Translations under genes and position numbers: made by a program
The notes under the pieces: generated by a model
Database searches by the model: none
What the model was told of the DNA's origin: nothing
Seen by the model: the letters and a program-made list of their open reading frames with translations, nothing else
DNA from: a virus
Direction: 5' to 3' (one strand)
Virus record (IMG/VR): IMGVR_UViG_3300037517_000770
Coordinates: 1-28,121 of that record
DNA length: 28,121 bases
In this document: piece after piece, positions 17,399 through 27,925 of the stretch
Layout: each line of letters begins with the position of its first letter
How positions within the stretch are numbered: position 1 is the first letter of the stretch

Positions 17399-17599
17399 TT
17401 ACACAACTGAAGCCAGCGGCCTCCAGCGGGCCACCATCAAATCGCTCAATTTGACTGGGTGGGGGGAAAGGGGGGCGGGTCGTCGTGCTGCCAAATTGTC
17501 ACACATTTTTTGGCCCCGCTGGGTTGCCACAGCCGCCCGCCCGCCGCAGCCGTCGCAGATTCCAAATTTTGTTTGAGTTGTTTGAGTCGTGCATTTCAT
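17399..17599 (-). CDS. possible small Cys-rich ORF between HNH and TerS
   Basis: A 66-residue ORF whose ATG overlaps the HNH stop as ATGA, so it could be translationally coupled. It contains CDGCGG (15-20) and a further Cys at 33 (MCDNLAARRP), a pattern like a small zinc ribbon, although the final Cys of a full site is missing. The RRPAPLSPHP segment is encoded by the C-rich face of a G-quadruplex motif. No strong SD. Downstream of its stop there are 77 bases without a gene before TerS. Either a small zinc protein or a packaging-site region that happens to be open. Confidence 0.45.
   Translation of the reverse strand: MKCTTQTTQTKFGICDGCGGRAAVATQRGQKMCDNLAARRPAPLSPHPVKLSDLMVARWRPLASVV
17457..17479 (+). 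other. G-quadruplex motif near the terminase genes
   Basis: The plus strand reads GGG-T-G6-AAA-G6-C-GGG: four runs of three or more guanines with loops of 1, 3 and 1 bases, an ideal quadruplex consensus. It lies between the HNH and TerS genes, where cohesive-end sites of HK97-like phages are often found. A packaging-site role is only a suggestion; the cut site itself is not visible. Confidence 0.6.
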
Positions 17600-17937
17600 T
17601 TTCCAAACTTGTGTGCTGCGTCGTCTGCGTGGCGATTTTGATGGCAAGATTTGCAAAGTGAAACTAAGTTTTCGATTGCTAGTCGAAGCTCAGGTGCAAC
17701 TGTAATTGGTATGACGTGATGCACCTCGGCCGCCGCCGTCGTCCGCCCCGCACCCAAACAATCTTCGCACAGTGGGTTGCTGGCCCGGTATCGCTCACTA
17801 AGTGTCCGCCAGTCATGACCACGCCCCGCCTGTTTTGTTGTCTTTGTCCTGGGCTTATAGGTTCCACTGTAGTTGCAGCAATTGCAGCGGCCATCAACCA
17901 CGATGCCCCTCCCACATTTACAAAAACGCTTACCCAT
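17596..17937 (-). CDS. HNH endonuclease (packaging type)
   Basis: A 113-residue HNH nuclease. An N-terminal Cys cluster (CKCGR, CNCC) forms a zinc ribbon. The catalytic module is CEDC ... AAEVHHVIPI ... LRLAIENLVSLCKSCHQNRH: two C-x-x-C zinc pairs, the HH pair, the Asn and the final His. Next to TerS/TerL in HK97-like phages, such nucleases assist terminase at the cos cut. SD-like GGACGGGGGG precedes ATG 17937. It lies eleven bases after the Ig-like gene. Confidence 0.85.
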   Translation of the reverse strand: MGKRFCKCGRGIVVDGRCNCCNYSGTYKPRTKTTKQAGRGHDWRTLSERYRASNPLCEDCLGAGRTTAAAEVHHVIPITVAPELRLAIENLVSLCKSCHQNRHADDAAHKFGK

Positions 17938-24774: not shown

Positions 24775-24967
24775 GTCTCGCCCTCCAGCACTGTTTCGGC
24801 ATCCGCTCAATGCCGTAGGTCCGTTTAATGTCCCAGTACGCCAGCCGCTCCGATTCCCACCGCCGCCACCACGCTGGCTTGTACCGCCAGAAGACATCGC
24901 TGCTGCATCCTTCCTCGATGATGGCCGCCCGCTCGTCCCACAGTTCGATGATGTCAGCCTCGCTCAT
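24758..24967 (-). CDS. small hypothetical protein of the replication module
   Basis: A 69-residue protein starting MSEADIIELWDERAAIIEEG, acidic first half and Trp/Arg-rich second half (WWRRWESERLAYWDIKRTYG). No known motif. Start at ATG 24967 with AGGTG seven bases upstream; overlaps the preceding stop by 14 bases. Trp/Arg-rich helices of this sort often occur in small phage regulators, but nothing specific is claimed. Confidence 0.65.
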   Translation of the reverse strand: MSEADIIELWDERAAIIEEGCSSDVFWRYKPAWWRRWESERLAYWDIKRTYGIERMPKQCWRARRDAAG

Positions 24968-25325
24968 ACTCAATCACCTGCTGCTCGAGCTGCGACACGA
25001 ACTCAGCCACCTCGCCAGCCGTCACGCCAGGGTTGGCCAGCCGGTAGACCCTCACCGCTTCCGCAATCCGCTGGCCGTGTGCGACCTTTGGATTGTGGCT
25101 TCGCCGGTTCCAGCTGCGATACTCAATCACCGCACGCCGTACCACGCTGGCAGGCGGCATGCAGTCACGGGTTCGGCCGACCTTCAGGATGGCGGCCGAC
25201 AACTCGTCACGGTCGAACTCGCCCAGCACCAGATGCCAGGCGTTGACATCGACCTCGGTCAGCTCGCGGCCGAACAGGCTGAACAGTGCCGCCAGCATCA
25301 GGCCCAGTTCACTTCGATTGACCAT
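24954..25325 (-). CDS. helicase-loader-type replication protein (G39P-like), tentative
   Basis: A 123-residue helical protein. An N-terminal helix (ELGLMLAALFSLFGRELTEV) is followed by VDVNAWHLVLGEFDRDELSAAI, KVGRTRDCMPPASVVRRAVI. This pattern (short acidic segment, A-I-x-x-x, then a proline-containing P-x-x-x-x-x-R) resembles phage loader/inhibitor proteins of the G39P type, which partner an initiator and a hexameric helicase. It lies directly downstream of the initiator-like gene with GGAGG before its ATG. Family call is moderate to weak. Confidence 0.5.
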   Translation of the reverse strand: MVNRSELGLMLAALFSLFGRELTEVDVNAWHLVLGEFDRDELSAAILKVGRTRDCMPPASVVRRAVIEYRSWNRRSHNPKVAHGQRIAEAVRVYRLANPGVTAGEVAEFVSQLEQQVIEYERG

Positions 25326-26352
25326 TGGAACCTCCTAGGAATCCTGCCACGCCTGCCTCCTCCTGAGCCTTAATCCGCTGCAGCATCTCGGCCATGTTCT
25401 GCTGCCGCTGCTGGCCGAAGGTGACCGGCTTGGCGCTGGCCTTGCCGCTATTGCCTCGCAGGTCGTTGCGTTCCCATTGGCGAACAGCCGCCTTCCAGTC
25501 CTTCATGGGGTTCTTGCCGACCTTCCAGCCGTTGGCTGTGTAGTGGTCCATCCACTCGTGCGGGTCGACGGTGTTGCCACGTTCCTTGCAGTACGCCACC
25601 ACATCCTCGATTGTCGGTCGCACCATTGAGATACCACTCTTAGTGGTATCTCTTTCTTCTCTTCTCTCCTGTACTGTGGTCACGCTTTTGTCACAAACTT
25701 TTGTGACATTTTTGTGACGCAATTCATCAGGTGTTTTGTTGCTCAATTTTTGATTGCAAACAGTGCAGCAAGTCACCAAATTTTCAGCGTTTGTGGCACC
25801 ACCACGGCTTTCTGGCTGGACGTGATGCACCGACAATTTAGCGCCAATGTACGGACCGACCACCGCTTTTTTGCTAGGGTTCCACTGGCAATAAACGCAC
25901 GTAAACCCGTCACGCTCGTAGACCTCTCGCCGCACCGCAGCCGGAACGTGATCTTTTTGTTTGTTTGCTGTCACAACTTTTTGTGACATTTGTGTGACAC
26001 GTTCTTTTTGCTTCCTTCGAGAGGCTGAAATCCGCTTTTTTGCGGACTCGCCCAGCCATCGGTCCCAGTTCGGAAAGCTGATGTAAGGCTTGCCGTCGGT
26101 GTCCACGCCATGCTCCAGCCATCCAGCGTCGGCCATCAGCTGCGGAAAGTCCGGCAGGGATGTCACCCTGCCCAGCGATGTTAGCGTGACGTGCTTGACG
26201 CAGCCGTCTTGCGACTGGCGTGACGCCCACGCCCAGATTCGATGCAGGTAGCCGACAATGACTTCCTCTCGCTGGCCAATACGCTCGGCCATGTAGGTCA
26301 CCGCCGGGTCTTCGTACAGGTCCAGCCGCATTGGTATCCAATCACCAGCCAT
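25309..26352 (-). CDS. replication initiator with an internal HNH domain
   Basis: A 347-residue protein; coordinates below count from the second Met. Residues 1-115 look like a phage replisome-organiser winged-helix domain (DWIPMRLDLYEDPAVTYMAE ... WAWASRQSQDGCVKH ... ISFPNWDRWLGESAKKR). Residues 135-212 are a complete HNH nuclease: VYERDGFTCVYC, LSVHHVQPESRGG, NAENLVTCCTVCNQKL. Residues 245-295 (RPTIEDVVAYCKERGNTVDP ... GWKVGKNPMKDWKAAVRQWE) match the C-terminal partner-binding domain of replication proteins. GGGAGG lies six bases before ATG 26352. It is followed by a helicase-loader-type gene. The DNA also contains origin-like repeats. Confidence 0.8.
   Translation of the reverse strand: MAGDWIPMRLDLYEDPAVTYMAERIGQREEVIVGYLHRIWAWASRQSQDGCVKHVTLTSLGRVTSLPDFPQLMADAGWLEHGVDTDGKPYISFPNWDRWLGESAKKRISASRRKQKERVTQMSQKVVTANKQKDHVPAAVRREVYERDGFTCVYCQWNPSKKAVVGPYIGAKLSVHHVQPESRGGATNAENLVTCCTVCNQKLSNKTPDELRHKNVTKVCDKSVTTVQERREERDTTKSGISMVRPTIEDVVAYCKERGNTVDPHEWMDHYTANGWKVGKNPMKDWKAAVRQWERNDLRGNSGKASAKPVTFGQQRQQNMAEMLQRIKAQEEAGVAGFLGGSNGQSK
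25628..25720. other. candidate replication origin inside the initiator gene
   Basis: In coding-strand order: three GTCACAA-type units (25720-25690; two direct at 11-bp spacing, then one inverted), then a purine tract AGGAGAGAAGAGAAGAAAGA (25671-25652), then a perfect 11-bp inverted repeat with 3-base loop (25628-25638 / 25642-25652, GAGATACCACT arms). The layout iterons, purine-rich tract, palindrome is that of the lambda origin within gene O. Confidence 0.6.
25690..26000. repeat. two 31-bp iteron clusters flanking the HNH-coding DNA
   Basis: 25690-25720 and 25970-26000 match at 27 of 31 bases. Each has GTCACAA in one orientation and two copies of its reverse (TTGTGAC-type) at 11-bp spacing. 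The two copies are in different reading frames of the same gene, so the similarity is kept at DNA level, not protein level. They lie either side of the HNH-coding segment, 280 bp apart. Confidence 0.8.
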
Positions 26353-27482
26353 CATTCACCTCCCGTCAGCCTGTCCATTGCCATCCTTGCCACCACTTCA
26401 GCCACCTGCGGAACTATGGCGTTGCCGAGGCATCGCAACTTGTTGACTCGGTTTGGGATTCTGGTTGCGACTCGCCCGGCAAATCGCACTAGTCCACCGG
26501 AAACCCCATTAACCAGCTCACCCATTGCGGGTTCAGCTGCCCACCAGCCACCGCTGCCAGTGTCGGCGTGTTCCGTTCGTGTTCCGCCGGGTAGCCGCCC
26601 TCCTTGGCGTTGTGTGCCGTTGGTGTCGGCAGGAACTTGACCGCTGCTTCCAGCGAAATCTGCTTGCCAATTGCCATCCGCCTGGCTGTACTGTTCTGCG
26701 TTGCCCATGGTCGATTGTCTGAGGCGTTTGGTGTCGGCCACCACTTCACCGCATCGTTCAGCGTTATCGACTGCTTGGTCCCGCTCGGCCTCTTGCCTGT
26801 TGGCCTGTTCTTCGATACTCGGCCGCCGGTGCCCATGCTTGCGTCGGGTGTAGGCCACATCGCCATTTCCACGGGTGTCGGTGTTCGTCCTTGCCTGGAC
26901 TTCTCGCTGCGTCCCGTTCCTTTTGCCATCGCTGCCGTTGGTGTTCCGACAGTTATCTGGCAGCTCGGCCATTTCTGCATACTGGGACAGAGCTGATTCG
27001 CCGTTGCTGTAGGCGAGAATAAAAACCCTGTCCCGGATATGCGGGGCACCAACGGCGGCAGCCGGTATGCAATGCCACTCCGCATCAAACCCGACCTCGG
27101 CCAGCGTCCCGAGAACTCGGTCCAGCCCTCTAGTAAGCAACGCTGCCACGTTCTCCAAGACAACTGCTCTCGGTTGCAATTCTCGAACCAAGCGAATGGC
27201 TTCAAAGAACAACCCGCTTCTGGCTCCATCAAGGCCTGCTCCTTTCCCGGCGTAGGAAATATCCACACAGGGAAATCCGCCGATGATGCAATCGACGCGC
27301 TCGAGGTTGTGTTGTCCGCACTGCCGGATGTCTCGCTCCCGATGCACGTCTGGCCAGTGCCGCTTAAGGATTTTCGTCGCATAGTCATCAATCTCCACCT
27401 GCCACTTGCACTGAAACCCAGCCCGTTCAAAACCTAAGTCAAACCCGCCAATGCCTGCGAACAAGCTCCCAAACGTCAGCAT
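26352..27482 (-). CDS. C5 cytosine DNA methyltransferase
   Basis: A 376-residue enzyme. Motif I SLFAGIGGFDLGFERAGF, motif II VEIDDYA, motif IV GGFPCVDIS with catalytic Cys72, motif VI LENV (E110, N111), motif VIII IRDRVFILA and C-terminal motif X RCLGNAIVPQVAE are all present and in order. The region between motif VIII and X (about 160-300) is hydrophilic and Asn/Thr/Arg-rich. Start set at ATG 27482, five bases after GGAGG; earlier starts lack a proper SD. It likely protects phage DNA from host restriction. The same DNA has a long second frame described in the findings. Confidence 0.88.
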   Translation of the reverse strand: MLTFGSLFAGIGGFDLGFERAGFQCKWQVEIDDYATKILKRHWPDVHRERDIRQCGQHNLERVDCIIGGFPCVDISYAGKGAGLDGARSGLFFEAIRLVRELQPRAVVLENVAALLTRGLDRVLGTLAEVGFDAEWHCIPAAAVGAPHIRDRVFILAYSNGESALSQYAEMAELPDNCRNTNGSDGKRNGTQREVQARTNTDTRGNGDVAYTRRKHGHRRPSIEEQANRQEAERDQAVDNAERCGEVVADTKRLRQSTMGNAEQYSQADGNWQADFAGSSGQVPADTNGTQRQGGRLPGGTRTEHADTGSGGWWAAEPAMGELVNGVSGGLVRFAGRVATRIPNRVNKLRCLGNAIVPQVAEVVARMAMDRLTGGE

Positions 27483-27925
27483 CCCTGCCTCCATCCCTGC
27501 GTTCGTGCCCATTCCGCAATCAGCAGGCTGTCCGCATTGGCGTGCGTGATTTTCATAAACGGCCAGCGACGCTGGGCCTCAGCCTTGCTGACGTTCTTGT
27601 CGCCTTTGGTGAGGCAACCCATCTGCTGCTGCCACTTCTGCGGACGGACTAGCAGGTACGGCACCTGGTTGGCATCCAGCAAGCCAAGCACATGGCCGAA
27701 GCTCTGGCCGAAGGTGAACGCCGATTTAACGCCCATCTGCGGCGAGCTGTGAACCTGCTCAAGTGCGGCCTTGGCCCGGTGCAAATCGAACTGGTGGAAC
27801 CAGTCGGCGATGTCCTTGCCGGTGCCGTCCAGCTTGCAGGGGCTGCCGTCCCAAGGCGTCCCGTCGTCCCAGATCGCCGACACGCTGCCGCTCTTGCCGG
27901 GGTCAATTCCGAAGTAAATCGCCAT
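27476..27925 (-). CDS. RuvC-like Holliday-junction resolvase
   Basis: A 149-residue RNase-H-fold nuclease. Catalytic acids: Asp8 in FGIDPGKSG, Glu56 in AALEQVHSSPQMGV, and Asp132 in THANADSLLIAEW. The segment FTFGQSFGHVLGLL is the family's DNA-contact loop. SD CGGAGG precedes ATG 27925. It overlaps the methyltransferase gene by seven bases. It would resolve branched replication intermediates before packaging. Confidence 0.85.
   Translation of the reverse strand: MAIYFGIDPGKSGSVSAIWDDGTPWDGSPCKLDGTGKDIADWFHQFDLHRAKAALEQVHSSPQMGVKSAFTFGQSFGHVLGLLDANQVPYLLVRPQKWQQQMGCLTKGDKNVSKAEAQRRWPFMKITHANADSLLIAEWARTQGWRQGC

Follow-up and report, generated by a model that had tools for sequence, protein, structure and literature searches.

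In phage lambda, the palindromic iterons of the replication origin are located midway along gene O (PMC7466680). The ICP1 protein Odn combines a T5orf172 nuclease with a RepA_N domain that binds iterons, and it needs iterons to cut the origin of a satellite (PMC8263062). Nuclease genes have also been found to occur at boundaries of genetic exchange between phages (PMC10448857). Here we analyze a 28-kb virus record (28,121 nucleotides; "the window" denotes this whole stretch) in which an HNH nuclease domain is encoded, in frame, between two iteron clusters of a putative replication initiator gene. The iterons lie within the gene, between the regions encoding its DNA-binding and C-terminal domains, and each iteron unit is an inverted repeat; by analogy, the arrangement looks like an intragenic origin of the lambda type.

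Both clusters are housed in a single open reading frame of 1,047 bp (25309-26355, minus strand; 348 aa), a predicted replication initiator to which function is assigned by homology. Residues 2-135 match the phrog_2509 family, annotated 'replication initiation protein' (E 2e-31), and this N-terminal match, together with replication-module neighbors, places the protein in the epsilon15-type initiator family. The N-terminal domain (aa 1-115; 26011-26355, minus) is winged-helix-like and common to epsilon15-type initiators. A fold search with this domain gave weak winged helix-turn-helix matches, none at E <0.03, and in an AlphaFold model of the whole protein confidence was confined to the N-terminal domain, the HNH, for which the alignment contained one relative with an HNH, being modeled at a pLDDT of ~30. 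The C-terminal domain (aa 241-335; 25351-25635, minus) belongs to the KNPMKDWKAAVRQWERN family, with the motif KNPMKDWKAAVRxWE, and is found behind many unrelated N-termini in other phages (L048-L125); the linker between the two domains seems to be a swap point. Another initiator (L066, 2131-3141) is a mosaic: its final 46 codons share 96% identity with those of the window initiator, and its upstream part comes from another lineage. Adjoining the initiator gene is a C5-cytosine DNA methyltransferase gene (26352-27512, minus; PF00145, E 1e-50), annotated as the same neighbor in epsilon15, and beyond it lies a gene for a RuvC-like Holliday junction resolvase (27476-27925, minus; phrog_1770, E 1e-23) of a kind also present within the epsilon15 replication module.

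The original prediction was that two 31-bp clusters, 27/31 identical, flank the HNH-coding DNA and, being read in different frames, are conserved as DNA. Both parts hold. At a shift of 280, with PF01844 between its members, the direct pair is the sole pair of 31-mers this good at shifts of up to 12 kb in the window, and 12 dinucleotide shuffles produced none to equal it. The clusters are unequal: the left one (about 25969-25999, minus) comprises three half-sites, GTCAC-11-GTCAC-13-GTGAC, at gene nt 358, 369 and 382, while the right one (25679-25718, minus) is a 40-bp dyad quartet, GTCAC-11-GTCAC-13-GTGAC-11-GTGAC, at gene nt 638-11-649-13-662-11-673, so that the 31-bp copy occupies 25689-25718 and the cluster as a whole reaches 25679. 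The outermost 5′ half-site of the right cluster, at gene nt 638, belongs to the HNH-bearing segment, within its final 9 nt. The density of GTCAC/GTGAC cores is 13.4 per kb for the initiator gene and 2.5 per kb elsewhere. A shift of 280 is not divisible by 3, which puts the two copies in different frames, and synonymous recoding with the window's own codon usage kept the right quartet in 29 of 20000 trials and the left triplet in 191 of 20000; the observed number of cores was reached in 2/20000. Since recoding so rarely keeps them, the clusters are conserved as DNA and not through coding alone. Codon bias, which had been named as a possible source of the repeats, and protein repeats are ruled out by the recoding and the difference in frame.

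Two further elements lie beside the right quartet. A purine-rich tract, GGAGAGAAGAGAAGAAAGA (25651-25670, minus), adjoins it, has similar counterparts in close relatives and is a possible unwinding region; the tract beside the iterons is purine-rich rather than AT-rich in the window, and AT-rich in an HNH-free relative (L040). Just beyond it is a perfect 11-bp inverted repeat, GAGATACCACT-CTT-AGTGGTATCTC (25628-25652), which is shared with two initiators having the same C-terminal domain (L001 and L004), is missing in L002, and is a possible further origin element. In L004, a six-half-site array is present at gene nt 132-190, in winged-helix-coding DNA; the window has just three of these six positions (gene nt 132, 166 and 190), as if a cluster there had decayed.

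The quartet is not peculiar to this gene. A scan for its geometry, with any half-site sequence allowed, found a four-half-site dyad of ~40 bp in 45 of 81 non-redundant initiators and in 4 of 1620 dinucleotide shuffles, although many of the 81 are related and the 45 are therefore not a count of independent events. Phage epsilon15 itself (L126) carries a quartet at gene nt 56. That of L040, at gene nt 395, is a near-perfect palindrome with 18-bp arms that are fully complementary, and that of L004, also HNH-free, is spaced 11-14-11. The half-site changes with lineage (GTCAC, GTAAC/TAACG, GTCCG/TCCGC, GTCCC, GTTAC) while the spacing stays near constant; a site bound by a protein would be expected to change in this way, with its four half-sites altering together. 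Because the lambda ori iterons sit in the middle of gene O, we infer that the quartet sites are putative binding sites of the initiator and the origin. A limited literature search aimed at the dyad quartet found no prior description of it.

Second clusters are common in this family. Two or more clusters of the half-site tested are present in 23 of the 47 genes listed, the window included, and a second cluster lies in the first 300 nt of 20 of 28 genes tested, where codon shuffling gave a mean of 0.23. The same test with half-sites of other lineages gave 14/112, so the signal reflects conserved protein sequence in part and the lineage's own half-site for the most part. In epsilon15 and L019 the clusters are 279 bp apart, as compared with 280 in the window. 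A narrow alignment (A2) gave no matches in a scan of genomes for the family, and a broader one (A3) did. An initiator without HNH in a Planctomycetaceae MAG (L272, 1501-2607), whose N-terminal domain shares 34% identity with that of the window, has a three-site cluster (364-11-375-14-389) and a four-site cluster (595-11-606-14-620-11-631) flanking a non-HNH spacer of ~200 nt, as in the layout of the window.

The HNH domain occupies aa 153-207 (25735-25899, minus) and matches PF01844 above the Pfam cutoff (E 4e-10) and HNH_5 (E 4e-9). Breakpoint analysis, composition and divergence delimit an HNH-bearing segment of 258 nt, or 86 codons, at 25711-25968 (minus), which has no counterpart in L002. 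Its zinc and catalytic residues are complete (CVYC..VHH..ENL..CTVCN) and are preserved in a second contig, L001, which carries the same segment between mosaic flanks. With a GC3 of 0.51, as against 0.73 and 0.77 in its flanks, the segment is foreign-looking; planctomycete genomes contain other ORFs whose HNH regions share 41-46% identity with it, a possible donor pool. Five synonymous and two non-synonymous differences separate the window and L001 segments, giving a pN/pS of 0.11 (P 0.007 against neutrality) in a test that rests on these seven substitutions because two HNH alleles are known. Judged from these sequences, the nuclease is apparently intact and maintained.

The fusion is rare. An HNH was found in 2 of 165 initiators (the window and L001) and in 0 of 69 distinct ORFs related through the C-terminal domain. 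When 50,697 phage records were searched, none of the best matches had a place covering both the N-terminal domain and an HNH, and the two were not found together in known phages or plasmids, as judged for phages from those best matches. No HNH fusion was recognized among the matches listed for 392 Planctomycetota genomes, L278, L281, L283, L284 and L285 being left out. An assembly artefact is judged unlikely, as L001 has the same fusion between mosaic flanks and two contigs have the empty array. The window also contains a free-standing second HNH gene (17596-17937), located, as is common in phages, directly upstream of the terminase genes; its product is weakly similar to the initiator HNH. 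In Escherichia phages Louie (L038, 2675-3475) and Dewey (L039), stand-alone HNH genes lie directly upstream of the replication initiator gene, a further case of a nuclease gene adjoining an initiator gene.

Two IMG/VR contigs that lack the HNH (L002 and L003) are 92.3% identical to the window over 392 bp to the left of the junction and 92% identical over 63 bp to its right. Their array is compact and symmetric, with six sites at 358-11-369-13-382-9-391-13-404-11-415, and the best breakpoints in a two-sided alignment fall at gene nt 386/387, at most 2 bp from the center of the six-site array of L002. The window is longer by 258 nt, in frame, and the second unit is displaced by exactly that amount, from 391/404/415 in L002 to 649/662/673. 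The half-arrays are thus spaced by 22 in L002 and by 280 in the window, and since both numbers are 1 mod 3 the frame difference is already present without the HNH. An uninterrupted array in the HNH-free allele, as looked for at the target of a homing endonuclease, is present in L002/L003. The original prediction had left a choice between splitting and duplication of the origin, expecting a single cluster in HNH-free relatives under the latter, and had offered as an alternative that the nuclease may cut or protect its own origin. Splitting accords with the contiguous array of L002; duplication does not, because L002 already has both half-arrays without an HNH, so that the HNH separates an existing array and no cluster was copied. 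Of the half-sites, the sole one without a counterpart in L002 is the additional one at gene nt 638, which is in register; at most, this one might have been duplicated.

We tentatively favor, with rather less than even confidence, a reading in which a lambda-type intragenic origin in an initiator gene acquired an in-frame HNH between two of its units, the nuclease acting on arrays that lack it. The two halves of this reading differ in strength. The quartet element, its geometry across the family, the empty allele, the in-frame segment, the intact HNH motif and the low pN/pS are direct observations, and the origin-plus-HNH anatomy is probably correct; the proposed action of the nuclease, guided by iterons and directed at HNH-free origins, is inferred and doubtful. 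In outline, the unit would be a dyad of ~40 bp with half-sites GTCAC GTCAC GTGAC GTGAC in linker-coding DNA, and an 86-codon HNH would have been acquired in frame between units, separating a compact, L002-like array while leaving the units and the frame undisturbed. The N-terminal domain of the initiator would carry the HNH to the iterons, and where relatives or satellites co-infect, their compact, HNH-free arrays would be cut near the dyad axis. The array of the HNH allele itself, 258 bp apart at the cut point, would no longer be a good target. Competitors would be excluded, as by ICP1 Odn, and the HNH allele could spread by repair, as in homing. In its full form, an initiator armed in place, with an HNH steered by the initiator's DNA-binding domain to cut HNH-free arrays and with its own split array serving both as self-immunity and as a homing route, the proposal is a shade more doubtful still. 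The right cluster, as a complete quartet, plausibly remains a target for self-cleavage.

It is also possible, if tentatively so, that the HNH is a neutral or domesticated insertion in a flexible linker, tolerated since the iteron units are intact, and without action on iterons. Linker length and content vary freely across the initiator family; Stx-phage O proteins tolerate extra linker residues (13 aa from two extra iterons), and two iterons plus the adjacent AT-rich tract are enough for lambda ori replication in vitro (PMC7466680), and the window's right quartet might likewise suffice alone. The junction at the dyad axis may be chance, because the linker is a natural place for any tolerated insertion; by our own rough estimate such a position would be hit about 1 time in 12 within a 60-bp array. 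What would be unexpected for an inert passenger at such divergence is the intact HNH motif in both alleles and the pN/pS of 0.11. On present evidence, nuclease action and a tolerated linker insertion are equally likely. A different question is that of polarity, and here an equally tentative reading, which fits either function of the HNH, is that the ancestral origin had three plus four sites with a spacer, that the HNH entered or replaced the spacer, and that L002 was compacted later. L272 has this 3-plus-4 layout without an HNH, and because of it L002 may be a derived, compacted allele, with the HNH occupying a pre-existing gap. The frequency of two-cluster genes and the 279-bp separation in epsilon15 and L019 point the same way, and the half-site at gene nt 638 would be accounted for without duplication. 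HNH-free relatives carrying both clusters, which the original prediction had regarded as evidence against its own interpretation, thus exist in part, as L272 and among the 23 two-cluster genes. Against this polarity, L272 and the window share just 34% identity across the N-terminal domain, the first cluster elsewhere lies mostly in winged-helix-coding DNA and not in the linker, and the compact L002 is 92% identical.

Three other explanations carry little weight. Insertion with target duplication, by which entry of the HNH copied one 31-bp cluster to both sides, would explain the 27/31 identity and the resemblance of the half-site at gene nt 638 (GYGTCACA) to the first half-site of the left cluster, but it is improbable: in L002, without an HNH, the second unit (391, 404, 415) directly adjoins the first, and recombination between such direct repeats would yield one quartet and not a six-site array. 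A spliced element in place of a fused domain is barely credible. HNH nucleases are common in inteins and group I introns, but the 86 codons are open in frame throughout and too short for an intein, and no Rfam family match at E up to 1 across 24900-26700 of the window supports an intron. Fractionally less probable than target duplication is a part for the HNH in replication initiation, nicking or processing the origin of its own phage. Such a role would suit a protein in which a nuclease and a putative origin-binding domain are joined and encoded beside its putative sites, but nearly all initiators of the family lack a nuclease, and origin melting of the lambda type involves no initiator nick (PMC7466680).

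If the HNH does act on iterons, origin-directed interference, known from ICP1 Odn, would be built into a functional initiator, and an empty-site pair exists. The quartet dyad provides a signature for putative origins in epsilon15-type phages and in prophages of Gammaproteobacteria, Planctomycetota and Verrucomicrobiota; the variation of its half-sites among lineages forms a natural series for initiator-origin co-evolution.

Among described systems, the likeness to a lambda-type intragenic origin lies in imperfect-palindrome iterons in linker-coding DNA followed by a compositionally biased tract; the window's family differs in having four half-sites per ~40-bp dyad with a lineage-specific sequence, and the window differs further in having an HNH domain between units. 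The window protein is not clearly similar to lambda O in sequence: the O-like family phrog_678 matches L040 (8e-11) and L002 (7e-5), and is not among the best 25 matches listed for the window protein. The Salmonella phage epsilon15 (Uetakevirus) shares the N-terminal family, the cytosine methyltransferase and RuvC-like resolvase neighbors, the quartet and the presence of two clusters, and differs in lacking an HNH and in its half-site, GTCCG instead of GTCAC. To the HNH of IscB/Cas9d the segment shows sub-threshold profile similarity (NF040563, E 3e-13, far below cutoff), and it has neither a RuvC domain nor a guide RNA association. As with phage HNH homing endonucleases, the HNH segment interrupts a putative recognition array for which a relative has an empty allele; in contrast to them, it is a domain fused in frame and belongs to no intron, intein or separate ORF. 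As in ICP1 Odn, an initiator-type DNA-binding domain is joined to a nuclease domain that is potentially directed at iterons; Odn, however, pairs T5orf172 with RepA_N as a dedicated weapon, whereas here an HNH is joined to a phrog_2509-type N-terminus in an apparently complete initiator. The window's system fits neither the homing endonuclease nor the Odn class, although its action could resemble either.
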